From the IMG/VR virus record IMGVR_UViG_3300017773_000037, positions 1 to 37,862 of that record: 37,862 nucleotides of DNA. One strand, given 5' to 3'. The position numbers and the translations under genes are program-made. Source of the DNA: a virus. This document shows, one piece after another, positions 1,235-34,257 of this stretch. The notes beneath the pieces were generated by a model. That model did not search any database. It was not told the DNA's origin and saw nothing but the letters and a program-made list of their open reading frames with translations. The stretch's first letter is position 1, and each line of letters starts with the position of its first letter.

Positions 1235-1523
1235 TTTTCAGAGAGTGTTGCACGAGACCAGCGACACCCTCCAAGTGCTGACAGATTCCAAAGGTCGGGA
1301 ATACGCCAACAGCTGTGACCAGCTAGCCAACTTTAAACGGTTGTCGGCCCAGCTGGGGCTCACTAAAGAGCAGGTAGTCATGGTCTATCTCTCCAAGCAC
1401 TTGGATTCAATCCATAGCTACGTGCGGAATCCAGATCAGGATCTGTCGGAGCCGATTCAAGGGCGCATCCATGACGCCATCCTCTATCTCGTTCTCCTCA
1501 AAGCCTGCATCGATGAAGACTAA
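1221..1523 (+). CDS. DUF1599 / nucleotide-modification-associated-like small phage protein
   Basis: 100-aa protein with the layout I know from DUF1599 (named 'nucleotide modification associated domain 1' in Pfam): a Tyr/Asn-Phe block (GREYANSCDQLANFKRL, residues about 25-41), a KHLDSI segment (59-64) and a C-terminal EPIQGRIHDAILYLVLL helix (77-93). The conserved Glu, Arg, Asp and His positions suggest a metal or nucleotide-binding helical protein, but the biochemical role of this family is not established. It overlaps the preceding gene by 14 nt and the sigma factor by 11 nt, so it belongs to the nucleotide-metabolism/sigma operon. Confidence 0.6.
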   Translation: MNKADFQRVLHETSDTLQVLTDSKGREYANSCDQLANFKRLSAQLGLTKEQVVMVYLSKHLDSIHSYVRNPDQDLSEPIQGRIHDAILYLVLLKACIDED

Positions 1524-2394
1524 GAGCTACAACGTTTGCGACAGATTCCCACCTCTGCTAACCGCGGCAGAGGAGATTGAAATGGGGCGCCGCATTCAAA
1601 CGATGCAGAAGCTTAAGCAAAAGCCCAAGCAAGAATTAACAAAATCGGAGCTCATCCAGATTAAGCGGGGACAACGGGCGTTGAACCGTATGATTTCGGG
1701 CAATCTTCGGATGGTCGCTGGGATCGCCCGTAAGTATACCGGCATCGTCAATCATCTGTCATTCGACGACATCATCCAGGAGGGAAATGTCGGGCTCTGC
1801 CGTGCTGCGGAGAAGTATGATCCCACTCGTGGCTACAAATTCAGCACTTATGCATACTGGTGGATACGGCAGTCAATCAATCGAGCCATCAGTGACAAAG
1901 AGCGCGTAGTGCGCATTCCGTGCAACGCTTTTGAATCGATTGGCAGAGCTTTATCTTGGCAGCAAGAATTTGAGCAAAAACACGGGCATCAGCCAACAGT
2001 CAATCAAGTAGCGGCTCACATCCGGATCTCACCAGAAGTTTTAGTGTCAGCACTACGTGCCTACTGGCGAGGCCCAAGCCTTGATGCTTCAGCAAAAGAC
2101 AAAAACGGTCAGACAGGCGGGGCTGCACTAGTAGATCTTTTTTCTAATCCATCAGACGCGGATCCATTAGACGAAATCGAGCATGGTATGCAGCGAGAGA
2201 AGCTGTATAGCATAGTCGGCACTCTGCCTGACGTACAAAAAGAGCTGTTGGGAGAGTATTACGGACTGTTCGGGCAAGACCCTGTCAGTTTTACCGTCAT
2301 GGGAAAAAAGCGCGGCGTTTCGCGTGAAGCGATCAGCCAGAAATGCCACCGTGCTATCAATGCACTGTCCATGAAAGCTCGCATGCTGCAGTAG
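1513..2394 (+). CDS. Phage-encoded sigma-70 family factor (RpoD-like, regions 1.2-4)
   Basis: 293-aa sigma factor expected to bind host core RNA polymerase. Region 1.2: LLTAAEEIEMGRRIQ (15-29). Region 2: NLRMVAGIARKY (64-75), FDDIIQEGNVGLCRAAEKYD (84-103) and FSTYAYWWIRQSINRAI (110-126). Region 3: KHGHQPTVNQVAAHIRIS (156-173). Region 4: RGVSREAISQKCHRAINAL (267-285), the -35-reading HTH. Regions 2.3-2.4 closely match primary/group 2 cyanobacterial sigma factors. The chosen ATG 1513 overlaps the stop of the preceding gene; an upstream in-frame ATG at 1471 would add 14 residues lying inside that gene. Sigma factors of this complete type are uncommon in siphoviruses. A second, shorter sigma gene lies at 32359. 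Confidence 0.93.
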   Translation: MKTKSYNVCDRFPPLLTAAEEIEMGRRIQTMQKLKQKPKQELTKSELIQIKRGQRALNRMISGNLRMVAGIARKYTGIVNHLSFDDIIQEGNVGLCRAAEKYDPTRGYKFSTYAYWWIRQSINRAISDKERVVRIPCNAFESIGRALSWQQEFEQKHGHQPTVNQVAAHIRISPEVLVSALRAYWRGPSLDASAKDKNGQTGGAALVDLFSNPSDADPLDEIEHGMQREKLYSIVGTLPDVQKELLGEYYGLFGQDPVSFTVMGKKRGVSREAISQKCHRAINALSMKARMLQ

Positions 2395-17743: not shown

Positions 17744-18486
17744 ACAACAAACGTTCCTAAACCAGGGTAACCGCCAAAAGGTAACTCATTGTCAGCACCA
17801 AAACGAATCTCACAGCTACTTAGCTTTTTGCCGCATACGTCTTCCGAAGATTGATCGACCGGATTATTGTTTTCATCAAATTTTGCCGACCCGGAATACG
17901 TGCATTCTGAGCCTCTATAAATCCATGGGCAAAGGTTTTGACTGCAATGCCTTTTTGGAGCCCGAACACCGGCTAAATCAAATACAGCTGCAAGCTCAAA
18001 CTGAACAACATCTCTAGTCTCAGAAACCTTTCGCGCAACGTAGTAAATCTCTTGAGGGAACTCTTGGCTAGGGTCTGGCGTTCCAAACGGATTGCTTCCT
18101 CCTTCAAAGTTTGCAGCGTCGATATACCGTGCCAACGTGCGGATGCGTGTAAATTTTGCACCCGTCAAATCGTTGCCTGGTGTTGTCGTGTTCACCTCAA
18201 GCAAAATTGCCGTAATACTTCCGAGCAGGTTTGCCACCGTCAAAGTAGGTCGGGGCAAGCTGCTACTTTCTGCGCTGTACTCAAACCCGTCAGCCTCTAT
18301 TGGCAGAATTGAATACTCGTTGCTATTCCAAATTACTTTTTGAGCGCCCGTTCCGACATCATTGATACCGGCGTGAAACCTATAAGTAAAATCTGTGCCA
18401 TGTAATGCCGCAGTCGTCTCAAGCTCAAACAGCTCGATAACGCTGCCGGGATTAATCTTCTGAAGCTCAGATACTGGAATAGCCAT
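17740..18486 (-). CDS. L: Minor tail protein with Fe-S cysteine set (lambda L-like)
   Basis: 248-aa protein. The C-terminal region carries C181, C186, C195, C218 and C225. The set C186/C195/C218/C225 has spacings of 9, 23 and 7, which match (from memory) the four cysteines that hold the 4Fe-4S cluster in lambda gpL. N-terminal part: [20 protein letters not shown], common to the family. It shares ATGA with K and touches M. It likely forms part of the tail tip between tube and J. Confidence 0.92.
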
Positions 18487-32358: not shown

Positions 32359-32928
32359 TTGACCGAAATCAGCAATTTTGTAAAGACTGCGGCGAGATAT
32401 CCACTGCTGACCCAGACACAAGAAATTGAGCTAGGGCGACGGATCCAAGCCTGGTTGCAGCATCCGGACCCACCCCCCGCAATAATCCGATCAGGCCGCA
32501 GGGCTCGAGATCAGTTTGTGTGCAGCAATTTGCGCCTCGTCATATCAGTTGCCAAGAGATACTCGTCAAGGCTGAAGAGCACTAGCCTCACTTTTCAAGA
32601 TCTGCTCCAAGAAGGAACTTTGGGTTTGCAACGCGCAGCTGAAAAATACGATCCTGAATGCGGATACAAGATGTCAACTTATGCGTACTGGTGGATCAGG
32701 CAAGCAATATCCCGCAGCCTTGACATGAAGTCGTTGATGATACACATTCCCTGCGAAGCAAAACGCAAACTTCGGGCCTATGCGAAAGCATCTCAGGAAG
32801 GCGGCAGTCAAGCAGCAATACTCGAAAGAGCCGATCTTAAGCAACGCGATCTAGAGACCATCCAACAAGCAGCCATGTGCCGGAATGTTGGCGCATTAGA
32901 CGATTTGGACATGCACGCTCAATGCTGA
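32359..32928 (+). CDS. Truncated sigma-70 family factor lacking region 4
   Basis: 189-aa protein starting at TTG 32359; no ATG/GTG is available in frame. Region 1.2: ARYPLLTQTQEIELGRRIQ (12-30). Region 2: NLRLVISVAKRYSS (57-70), FQDLLQEGTLGLQRAAEKYD (79-98), MSTYAYWWIRQAISRSL (105-121). Region 3.0 start: SLMIHIPCEAKRKLRAY (125-141). The protein stops soon after NVGALDDLD, so the region 3.2 finger and region 4 (-35 reader, beta-flap binder) are missing; no region 4 sequence follows in any frame before the next promoter at 32933. Clearly different from the sigma at 1513. It could act like T4 gp55 (a sigma2-only late factor) or as a regulator of core polymerase. Confidence 0.88.
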   Translation: MTEISNFVKTAARYPLLTQTQEIELGRRIQAWLQHPDPPPAIIRSGRRARDQFVCSNLRLVISVAKRYSSRLKSTSLTFQDLLQEGTLGLQRAAEKYDPECGYKMSTYAYWWIRQAISRSLDMKSLMIHIPCEAKRKLRAYAKASQEGGSQAAILERADLKQRDLETIQQAAMCRNVGALDDLDMHAQC

Positions 32929-32932
32929 CATA

Positions 32933-32962
32933 TTGACGTTTTGTGAAATTGCATGTTATGAT
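32933..32962 (+). promoter_or_regulatory. Sigma70-type promoter, 18-bp spacer (unit 1)
   Basis: -35 TTGACG (32933-32938), 18-bp spacer, -10 TATGAT (32957-32962). Located directly after the truncated sigma stop and 38 bp before ATG 33001. The same layout occurs at 33623 and 33931. Confidence 0.8.
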
Positions 32963-32971
32963 ATGAATATA

Positions 32972-32988
32972 GAGGGCAACGAGCCCTC
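32972..32988 (+). promoter_or_regulatory. 5' leader hairpin, pentaloop AACGA (unit 1)
   Basis: GAGGGC (32972-32977), loop AACGA, GCCCTC (32983-32988). It starts 9 nt after the -10 box, so near the predicted mRNA 5' end, and ends 12 nt before ATG 33001. No Shine-Dalgarno lies between hairpin and start. Stem bases differ from units 2 and 3 while pairing is kept. Confidence 0.7.
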
Positions 32989-33000
32989 CTTCTTCACACC

Positions 33001-33471
33001 ATGCCCCGCACTTATACAGAGCAAGCACTCCACATCGTAGATAGCCTTCGGAAGATTGCAAAGCGTGACCACACCGTTTGCCGCAGCCGTGGATTCTCAT
33101 TCCATGAAAACGGACATATCTACTTGGACGAAGACCGGATCGGGCATGCTGCAGCAGTGCAAAGCTTGGCTGCAGTAATGGAGAAAGAAGAACTGGCGAT
33201 AGAAGAAGCCAAAAAACCCACTACAACCGCCAAAAAGAGCAAAACCAAAGGGCCAATGACTTGGGACAGCCTGAATGAAAATACCAAAGCGTATTTTTTC
33301 CAGTTAGCCGCTATCATCGGCGATGATGTAGACGTCATAGTAAAAATCGGTCTCAAAAATGCGCCTAGACTGAGCAATCTTAAGAGAGTGGGCTTAATTG
33401 CCAAGACGAAAAACAGTTACCACCAAGGACTAGAGATTACAGAAGCAGGCCGGGTGCTTCGCGATGCCTGA
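33001..33471 (+). CDS. Putative winged-helix DNA-binding protein
   Basis: 156-aa protein. The N-terminal part (1-68) is mixed alpha/beta and unrecognised. A basic linker (KKPTTTAKKSKTKGP, 71-85) leads to a C-terminal segment (86-156) with helices TWDSLNENTKAYFFQLAAII, and then SNLKRVGLIAKTKNSYHQGL-EITEAGRVL. This has the 'recognition helix, GLI, wing, T-x-A-G-R' pattern of winged-helix domains. With its strong upstream promoter and position next to a sigma gene it is a candidate early transcription regulator. It overlaps the next gene by 8 nt. Confidence 0.65.
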   Translation: MPRTYTEQALHIVDSLRKIAKRDHTVCRSRGFSFHENGHIYLDEDRIGHAAAVQSLAAVMEKEELAIEEAKKPTTTAKKSKTKGPMTWDSLNENTKAYFFQLAAIIGDDVDVIVKIGLKNAPRLSNLKRVGLIAKTKNSYHQGLEITEAGRVLRDA

Positions 33472-33607
33472 CGTTCGCTGGTCCACTTCGCCACAAATCA
33501 ACGTGGAGGCCGCCAGGCAGGCGGCCAAAAAATCCAAGGATGGCCGCGGCCTAACGGCTCTTGAGCGTGCCTTTTATGAATCCTACAACAAGAAGCCCAG
33601 GAAATGA
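33464..33607 (+). CDS. 47-aa small protein of unknown function
   Basis: ATG 33464 to TGA 33605-33607, overlapping the preceding stop by 8 nt. The product is MPDVRWSTSPQINVEAARQA followed by a basic stretch (AKKSKDGRGLTALERAFYES and YNKKPRK). No membrane segment; probably helical. It shares the transcript of the winged-helix gene. Confidence 0.6.
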   Translation: MPDVRWSTSPQINVEAARQAAKKSKDGRGLTALERAFYESYNKKPRK

Positions 33608-33622
33608 CCTGAGTGTTAAGCA

Positions 33623-33652
33623 TTGACGAAATGCGCTATTCCGTGATATAGT
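33623..33652 (+). promoter_or_regulatory. Sigma70-type promoter, 18-bp spacer (unit 2)
   Basis: -35 TTGACG (33623-33628), 18-bp spacer, -10 TATAGT (33647-33652). It is 39 bp upstream of ATG 33692. The -35 is identical to that of unit 1. Confidence 0.8.
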
Positions 33653-33660
33653 AGAATCAA

Positions 33661-33677
33661 GGAGGCAAAGAGCTTCC
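33661..33677 (+). promoter_or_regulatory. 5' leader hairpin, pentaloop AAAGA (unit 2)
   Basis: GGAGGC (33661-33666), loop AAAGA, GCTTCC (33672-33677); all six pairs form, one G-U. It starts 8 nt after the -10 box and ends 14 nt before the ATG. The 5' arm with the preceding AA gives a perfect AAGGAGG, but it lies 26 nt from the ATG and is inside the stem, so it cannot act as an ordinary ribosome binding site. Confidence 0.75.
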
Positions 33678-33691
33678 ACTGAACGGATCGA

Positions 33692-33925
33692 ATGACAAGC
33701 ACCGAACTCCGCGCCAAGCTTGAAGCCAATCTTGCTGATATGGCTCAAATTTTGAAAGATTTCGATTCAATGCCCAAGGGCTCGATCGATGAAGAAGACG
33801 ACTGCGACATCCTGGGTCTGCTTACCGATCTGGAATGCCTCAGCAGAGGCAACATCGATGAACAAATGCATGACGTAATTTACGAATCATTTGCCAATAG
33901 CCCACAAGTTACACAGATTTCATGA
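33692..33925 (+). CDS. Small highly acidic early-type protein
   Basis: 77-aa protein with about 17 Asp/Glu and 5 Lys/Arg, net charge near -12. It contains an imperfect internal duplication (PKGSIDEE at 28-35 and SRGNIDEQ at 51-58). Small acidic proteins from strong early phage promoters often bind host polymerase or mimic DNA, but there is no sequence match to a known inhibitor. Single-gene unit with hairpin leader. Confidence 0.65.
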   Translation: MTSTELRAKLEANLADMAQILKDFDSMPKGSIDEEDDCDILGLLTDLECLSRGNIDEQMHDVIYESFANSPQVTQIS

Positions 33926-33930
33926 AATAA

Positions 33931-33960
33931 TTGGCAAGGAGTGATATCTCATGCTACAAT
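33931..33960 (+). promoter_or_regulatory. Sigma70-type promoter, 18-bp spacer (unit 3)
   Basis: -35 TTGGCA (33931-33936), 18-bp spacer, -10 TACAAT (33955-33960), starting 5 bp after the preceding stop. The third member of the repeated promoter-leader architecture. Confidence 0.75.
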
Positions 33961-33968
33961 AAAATCAA

Positions 33969-33985
33969 GGAGGCAGAGAGCTTCC
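33969..33985 (+). promoter_or_regulatory. 5' leader hairpin, pentaloop AGAGA (unit 3)
   Basis: GGAGGC (33969-33974), loop AGAGA, GCTTCC (33980-33985), beginning 8 nt after the -10 box and ending 14 nt before ATG 34000. The block from AATCAAGG through the stem to the ATGACA start is nearly identical to unit 2 (33656 on), so units 2 and 3 arose by duplication or recombination of the leader. Confidence 0.75.
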
Positions 33986-33999
33986 ACCGAGCAAATCAA

Positions 34000-34257
34000 A
34001 TGACAACCGCAACCCACACGCTCACAGACGGCCTCAACAATTTCATTTTTGAAGTATCCACCGACATTTGCTTGATCAAGTTTGTCAACTGCTTCGGTGC
34101 TATCACCGAGACTATGGAATTCACAGTAGAAGAAGGCCGCAAGCAATGGAAGCTTGCTCTTGCTTGTGGCAACAAGCGTGGCTACAGCCTGCCCCGTCGT
34201 CCTGAGCCTTCGCTGTTTGCTATTAAGAAGGGTGAAAAGCCCCTACACGCAGCTTGA
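34000..34257 (+). CDS. 85-aa protein of unknown function
   Basis: Starts at ATG 34000; the longer in-frame reading from TTG 33931 would begin in the -35 box and is rejected. N-terminal beta-rich part (TLTDGLNNFIFEVSTDICLI, FGAITETMEFTVEEGRKQW), then ACGNKRGYSLPRRPEP. The 'T-x-E-E-G-R-K-Q-W' helix resembles small early proteins in other cyanophages, from memory only. The protein sequence is unrelated to that of unit 2 despite the near-identical leader. Its stop abuts the convergent gene with no gap. Confidence 0.65.
   Translation: MTTATHTLTDGLNNFIFEVSTDICLIKFVNCFGAITETMEFTVEEGRKQWKLALACGNKRGYSLPRRPEPSLFAIKKGEKPLHAA

Follow-up and report, generated by a model that had tools for sequence, protein, structure and literature searches.

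A promoter-linked leader hairpin repeated before unrelated cyanophage genes may protect the 5' ends of short messages

Background

A stem-loop in the 5' leader of a message is known from T7 gene 10, and T4-type phages reportedly carry promoter early stem-loops (PeSLs), a description attributed to Arbiol in 2010 and to Comeau in 2014. Where PMC4503421 touches on it, the T4-type PeSL is a promoter paired with a terminator stem-loop. The leaders of ompA and papA appear, in the part of PMC3997798 that cites Emory, Bouvet, Belasco and Bricker, as 5'-terminal stabilising stem-loops, and in E. coli, decay that depends on RNase E is slower where a message has a 5' stem-loop (PMC3997798). Cyanobacterial RNase E possesses the 5' sensor and cyanobacteria are without known RppH homologues (PMC10989914), the latter of which makes their 5'-dependent decay route uncertain. 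Two further phage elements invite comparison: boxB of the lambda and P22 nut sites (PMC12550061), and the SAS of cluster K mycobacteriophages, a 13-nt GGG...CCC element of unknown function that stands in one orientation 3-7 bp before the starts of unrelated non-structural genes and contains within its 13 bp the Shine-Dalgarno core AGGAG (PMC3203893).

Here we describe a leader hairpin found three times in a viral window of 37,862 nucleotides (the whole stretch of DNA analysed, positions 1 to 37,862 of IMG/VR virus record IMGVR_UViG_3300017773_000037), whose portal protein has its closest relatives in the cyanosiphoviruses KBS-S-2A and S-H1. Like the ompA-type stem-loops, the hairpin is short, is predicted to lie 2-4 nt from the mRNA 5' end and is followed by an open leader; unlike them, it recurs as a single structure, its GNRA-like loop conserved, ahead of many unrelated phage genes and at a set distance from the -10, and any effect on stability would be exerted in a host without known RppH. 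As in T4-type PeSLs, a strong sigma70 promoter and a stem-loop recur along a phage genome and unrelated small genes move between the copies (here the breaks fall at the leader or the start codon, and close to the stop). The hairpin departs from the terminator of a PeSL in that it sits within the leader, behind its promoter, and that a U-run follows the stem in only 14 of 69 units. SAS is likewise a one-orientation repeat before unrelated genes, and its consensus GGGATAGGAGCCC resembles GGGCAANGAGCCC; the hairpin, in contrast, ends 9-19 nt from the start codon, has no Shine-Dalgarno core in reach, covaries and is linked to a promoter, and so falls outside the definition of SAS. With boxB it has in common a short GC-rich stem, a position in phage leaders and a loop sequence compatible with a GNRA-fold pentaloop with one extruded base.

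Results

Three units in the window

The initial annotation had reported that three + strand genes, starting at 33001, 33692 and 34000, each have a -35/-10 promoter with an 18-bp spacer, a 6-bp hairpin 8-9 nt past the -10 and then 12-14 nt to the ATG, and it was correct in coordinates and sequences alike; we find in addition that all three promoters, which are of sigma70 type, carry the TG of an extended -10. In unit 1 the promoter TTGACG-18-TATGAT (32933-32962; -35 at 32933-32938, -10 at 32957-32962) is followed after 9 nt by the hairpin GAGGGC-AACGA-GCCCTC (32972-32988), which stands 12 nt before the ATG at 33001, and transcription would start at 32969, 7 nt past the -10. Unit 2 has the promoter TTGACG-18-TATAGT (33623-33652; -35 at 33623-33628, -10 at 33647-33652), a predicted start at 33659 and, 8 nt after the -10, the hairpin GGAGGC-AAAGA-GCTTCC (33661-33677), 14 nt before the ATG at 33692. 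The same distances of 8 and 14 nt hold in unit 3, where the promoter TTGGCA-18-TACAAT (33931-33960; -35 at 33931-33936, -10 at 33955-33960) precedes a predicted start at 33967, the hairpin GGAGGC-AGAGA-GCTTCC (33969-33985) and the ATG at 34000. The stems of units 2 and 3 contain one G.U pair each, and these two units share a 77-nt block at 74% identity.

The three proteins are mutually unrelated, as had been claimed and as BLAST bears out (they belong to families 0, 3 and 10). The unit 1 gene (33001-33471) encodes 156 amino acids and belongs to a family that is conserved in protein alignments and has a probable C-terminal winged helix; its first structural model was poor (pLDDT 65) and its second fair (78), and the fold matches, of MarR/PadR-like winged-helix type, are weak (E 0.02 or worse). 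The products of unit 2 (33692-33925, 77 amino acids) and unit 3 (34000-34257, 85 amino acids) are without a database match; unit 3 has homologues, 73-86% identical, in a second virus group. A 47-codon reading frame at 33464-33607 (+) overlaps the end of the unit 1 gene, which may make this unit bicistronic.

The conserved upstream neighbour of unit 1 is a short sigma70-like gene (32359-32928, +; 189 amino acids) with regions 1.2 and 2 only (Pfam Sigma70_r1_2 and Sigma70_r2; phrog_351). It is of near-constant length in about 50 viral contigs, and its product may be a sigma factor, an anti-host factor or a decoy. A second, longer sigma70-like gene with regions 1.2 to 4 lies at 1471-2394 (+).

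Coupling of promoter and hairpin

Promoter-like sites by themselves are not in excess in the window (8 observed, 8.5 expected), so promoters alone prove nothing. The three best promoters, judged by hexamer match plus TG, are those of units 1-3, all of them with the hairpin 8 or 9 nt past the -10. Stems of 6 bp that enclose a 5-nt loop are found at 0.12% of positions (about 0.24% for a gap of 8 or 9 nt), which puts three hairpins by chance at about 1e-8 if they are independent. When such a stem is combined with an ANNGA loop, four sites are found in the window on either strand, three of them in units 1-3, and a combined scan for promoter and hairpin returned exactly these three, with none in shuffles. 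It is the coupling of promoter and hairpin, not the promoters, that is far from chance.

Anatomy of the leader

A family of 69 distinct units was assembled from related contigs; the search for this set prescribed the loop and most of the pairing, so its loop tally is not independent. The gap from -10 to stem is 9 nt in 59 units and 8 nt in 3, counted outside the 7 distant-clade units with a non-canonical -10. Such a near-fixed distance would fit a hairpin placed at the mRNA 5' end, the predicted start putting the stem at +3 or +4 with 2-4 transcribed nt ahead of it. The hairpin is the minimum-energy structure of all 50 distinct leaders folded, in some by way of a bulged A that restores pairing, and most leaders are unpaired from the hairpin to the ATG, a stretch of 9-19 nt. 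None of the 69 spacers contains a Shine-Dalgarno core, whereas many structural genes of the window genome have one. Two candidate roles were rejected on this anatomy: an attenuator or terminator, there being no general U-run, and a Shine-Dalgarno sequence in the 5' arm, which would be too far from the ATG and is not kept in the second group.

Compensatory change in unit-1 leaders

Eighty related viral loci were found through the short sigma gene upstream of unit 1. The unit-1 leader set comprises 31 loci (L003 to L033; sigma 74-99% identical), selected by script on the promoter only, within 600 nt downstream, and all 31 have the promoter with its 18-bp spacer and the hairpin. In the 22 distinct leaders among them every one of 132 stem cells is paired, as 80 G-C, 23 A-U, 22 C-G and 7 G.U, with no A.C. 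An alignment of 32 leaders of several unit types shows three pairs in which both partners change (31 cells, compared with 9 in shuffles), but it was pre-filtered for pairing and adds less than the promoter-selected set; the contigs are moreover related and partly near-duplicates, so that counts of sequences are not counts of independent events. Throughout the window's group the top two stem pairs, G-C and C-G, are invariant.

The initial annotation had proposed a covariance-model search with these leaders. The model scores the window's unit 1 leader at E 3.6e-8, though this leader is part of its training set, and it recovered units in viruses further removed (sigma 59-67% identical), where most of them lie at another locus; versions with the tetraloop AAGA and with a 5-bp stem are among these units. 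In the units of L034, L038, L040, L045, L048 and L059 the hairpin stands behind a non-canonical -10 (TTTGAT followed by AT). Since this -10 is conserved among those contigs, a different sigma factor may read the distant-clade units.

Structure kept without sequence in a second group

The homologues of unit 3 in a second cyanosiphovirus group provide a fair test of pairing, because they were found by gene and not by hairpin. Ten of the 11 have the hairpin in the same place behind a -10-like element. The stems of this type (GGAGGC/GCTTCC in the window, then GCGG/CCGC, GGCG/CGCC and GCCC/GGGC) carry the loop GAGA, where the window has AGAGA, and the flanks TCAA and ACC are mostly retained; a plain energy fold of a longer stretch prefers another or an extended structure in two of the 11 (L157 and L166). 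Related phages that keep the genes and lack the stem had been named beforehand as the observation that would speak against a conserved structure. Such cases exist and are rare: one unit-3 homologue (L099/L166) has no recognisable hairpin and one G001 unit is degenerate. One G001 promoter is without any hairpin.

Further units of group 2 have the stems GGGA/TCCC, GCCG/CGGC and GGGG/CCCC with GAGA, and GGGC/GCCC with GCGA. All 44 stem cells of the group 2 set are paired, in a sample drawn from a scan that required pairing, and covariation is 0.873 compared with 0.215 in shuffles and at most 0.227 when slid. Because the stems vary freely between units of a single contig, structure is kept here rather than a sequence read by one factor. 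The initial annotation had argued for selection on structure from the stem of unit 1, which differs from those of units 2 and 3 and still pairs, and the compensatory changes in related leaders support that argument strongly. What is conserved, on these alignments, is the pairing and a GNRA-like loop and not the sequence. In the window's group the loop is A-A-(N)-G-A, its third base being variable, and has an AAGA variant; it would be a GNRA-like pentaloop with that third base extruded.

Upstream of the group 2 units in L092-L097, the promoters share GGTATGCCATNNT around the -10, for example GGTATGCCATACT. This block appears to go beyond a sigma70 -10 and may contain the site of a regulator.

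Genes exchanged behind the leader

The 69 units precede 15 protein families, for which there are almost no Pfam or PHROG matches, and near-identical leaders stand ahead of unrelated proteins. One exchange is seen in the distant clade between L040 and L038. These contigs share 91% identity over a stretch that opens 800 nt ahead of the stem and closes just beyond the start of the ATG, then continue into unrelated genes, and regain 90% identity about 12 nt before the stop codon. L034 and L038, and likewise L024 and L028, show the same pattern of replacement, with the break in the latter pair falling where the hairpin ends. Together with the compensatory changes, this replacement of genes after an unaltered leader lends strong support to the earlier proposal that the leader and not the genes is the conserved element. 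Promoter and hairpin form, in these comparisons, a fixed slot in which the gene is exchanged, and the cargo would consist of accessory genes.

Distribution

The strict promoter-plus-hairpin pattern was found in 40 stretches of viral contigs, nearly all of this virus group, as against six matches in 257 Gb of bacterial and archaeal genomes, which come from unrelated organisms and include none in a record titled cyanobacterium; on this comparison a host-derived element was rejected. A scan for the hairpin only (unit 2/3 type) gave 7 stretches, among them one contig nearly identical to the window, and that same contig was the sole match in single-protein searches for relatives of units 1 and 2. 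Rfam holds no family for the element, its only match lying elsewhere at chance level (E 2.6), and scans of KBS-S-2A, S-H1, MED4-117, P-HS2, S-CBS1, S-CBS3 and S-LBS1 gave nothing convincing. Cyanophage S-2L has one similar leader on its minus strand near 18044, TTGTGG-17-TGTTATAGT-9-GGGGGC-GGGA-GCCCCC, which scores poorly with the covariance model (12.0 bits near 18022-18051); the reading frame behind it, with a GTG start and 51 codons, corresponds to no annotated gene. In a Ruminococcus MAG (L137, minus strand near 1373), TTGACA-17-TGTTATTAT-9-GCGGGC-AAAGA-GCCCGC stands ahead of a gene, probably for a lipoprotein, whose Shine-Dalgarno sequence is normal; coincidence or convergence is the probable reason.

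The left end of the window encodes homologues of two S-2L proteins for 2-aminoadenine (Z) DNA, MazZ (153-428, +; 54%) and DatZ (493-963, +; 46%). In relatives PurZ (about 50%), MazZ and DatZ are adjacent, at 1705-3572 of L139 (G001) and 2167-4034 of L141 (G002), and the window's PurZ would fall just past its left edge. Judging from these homologues, this virus group may have Z-modified DNA.

Discussion

The reading we prefer, at a probability of a little under one half (about 0.48), is that of a cap-like protective hairpin at the 5' terminus of the message, in a plug-in expression slot for small accessory genes. Each unit would be a one-gene module in which a strong host-type sigma70 promoter with extended -10 is fused to the hairpin, and the timing is plausibly early, as such promoters suggest. 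The hairpin, whose GC-rich stem is short and is closed by a loop of GNRA or GNRA-like type (AA(N)GA in the window's group, GAGA or GCGA in the other), would form within the first 2-4 nt of the mRNA, followed by 9-19 nt of mostly open leader without a Shine-Dalgarno sequence and then the ATG. Almost no single-stranded 5' end would be left, and decay that depends on that end (RNase E, RNase J) would be denied a foothold; the short messages might then stay abundant with the rest of the leader open for initiation, while different small accessory genes are recombined into the fixed slot. The near-fixed distance from the -10, the free stems of group 2 and the open leader argue for a structure that acts at the 5' end and not for a sequence read by a binder. 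Against a protective role stand the lack of known RppH homologues in cyanobacteria, the loop, which is conserved beyond what simple protection needs, and the exceptions, that is, the homologue without a hairpin, the degenerate unit and the G001 promoter with none. Unit 2, furthermore, ends 5 nt before the -35 of unit 3, so read-through from it would make the unit 3 hairpin internal. Sequence alone does not separate the roles considered here, among which 5'-end protection appears to fit best.

The main rival to protection is a protein that reads the GNRA-like loop. The hairpin would then be a protein-binding RNA tag, boxB-like or a translational operator, through which a phage or host protein alters elongation, translation or stability, and we regard this as possible though doubtful. 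The loop is indeed conserved beyond the need of pairing (ANNGA in group 1, GAGA or GCGA in group 2), a GNRA-fold pentaloop with its third base extruded has the topology of P22 boxB (PMC12550061), and the two invariant pairs at the top of the stem in the window's group could belong to a binding site. Unlike boxB and unlike a stem that is read, however, the stems of group 2 differ freely within one contig, and a nut site does not require the near-fixed distance from the -10. Nor was a boxA found upstream of the hairpin, where the predicted start leaves only 2-4 transcribed nt, or, in a non-systematic search, an N-like protein identified. A more far-reaching idea, which we hold to be unlikely, makes the hairpin a viral 5' identity tag, an RNA stand-in for a cap, read by a phage or host factor that spares and translates phage messages while host messages decay, with the slot a hotspot for exchangeable takeover or counter-defence genes.

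It is improbable that promoter and hairpin serve above all as a boundary for recombination, a mobile regulatory cassette of the T4-type PeSL kind that is kept similar for gene shuffling. Sharp replacement in which homology stops inside the leader or just beyond the start of the ATG, near-identical leaders before unrelated proteins and the block shared by units 2 and 3 (77 nt at 74%) are what such a boundary would produce; it needs sequence identity, yet the stems diverge fully with pairing kept, and the shuffling probably results from the arrangement no less than it is what the arrangement is for. Less credible still is a leader that serves mainly in translation, the hairpin keeping the start region open or delivering the ribosome without a Shine-Dalgarno sequence. 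The spacers without a Shine-Dalgarno core (0 of 69, against many structural genes with one) and their openness in most folds are in keeping with this, but in group 1 the purine arm that looks like a Shine-Dalgarno sequence is paired and lies some 25-30 nt ahead of the ATG, in group 2 several arms (GCCC, GCCG) have no such likeness, and a role in translation only would not need a fixed distance from the -10. Very unlikely is the reading of the inverted repeat as a DNA operator, spanning about +3 to +20, to which a regulator of the phage, for instance the unit 1 protein, would bind: a 17-bp palindrome does lie at a fixed place, the unit 1 product has its weak MarR/PadR-like matches and a cyanophage MarR-type factor binds downstream of a transcription start in Prochlorococcus (PMC9692554), but the unit-1 leaders show G.U and no A.C exchanges, the loop is always in one orientation and the group 2 stems of one contig are mutually unrelated. 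The complete sigma70 promoter upstream and the G.T mismatches, which weaken a DNA hairpin, led us to set aside a promoter of the kind known as the N4-type DNA hairpin.

Conclusions

Clear compensatory evolution of a 5'-end hairpin that is repeated before unrelated phage genes is unusual, and it bears on how cyanophages keep messages alive in a host whose decay machinery is unlike that of E. coli. Cyanophage S-2L, which is in culture, has a similar leader and could make the element testable. The leader also serves as a search key, since what follows it is probably an exchangeable accessory gene, strongly expressed and of unknown function, and a search for it offers a practical way of listing candidates for host takeover or counter-defence in cyanophages.
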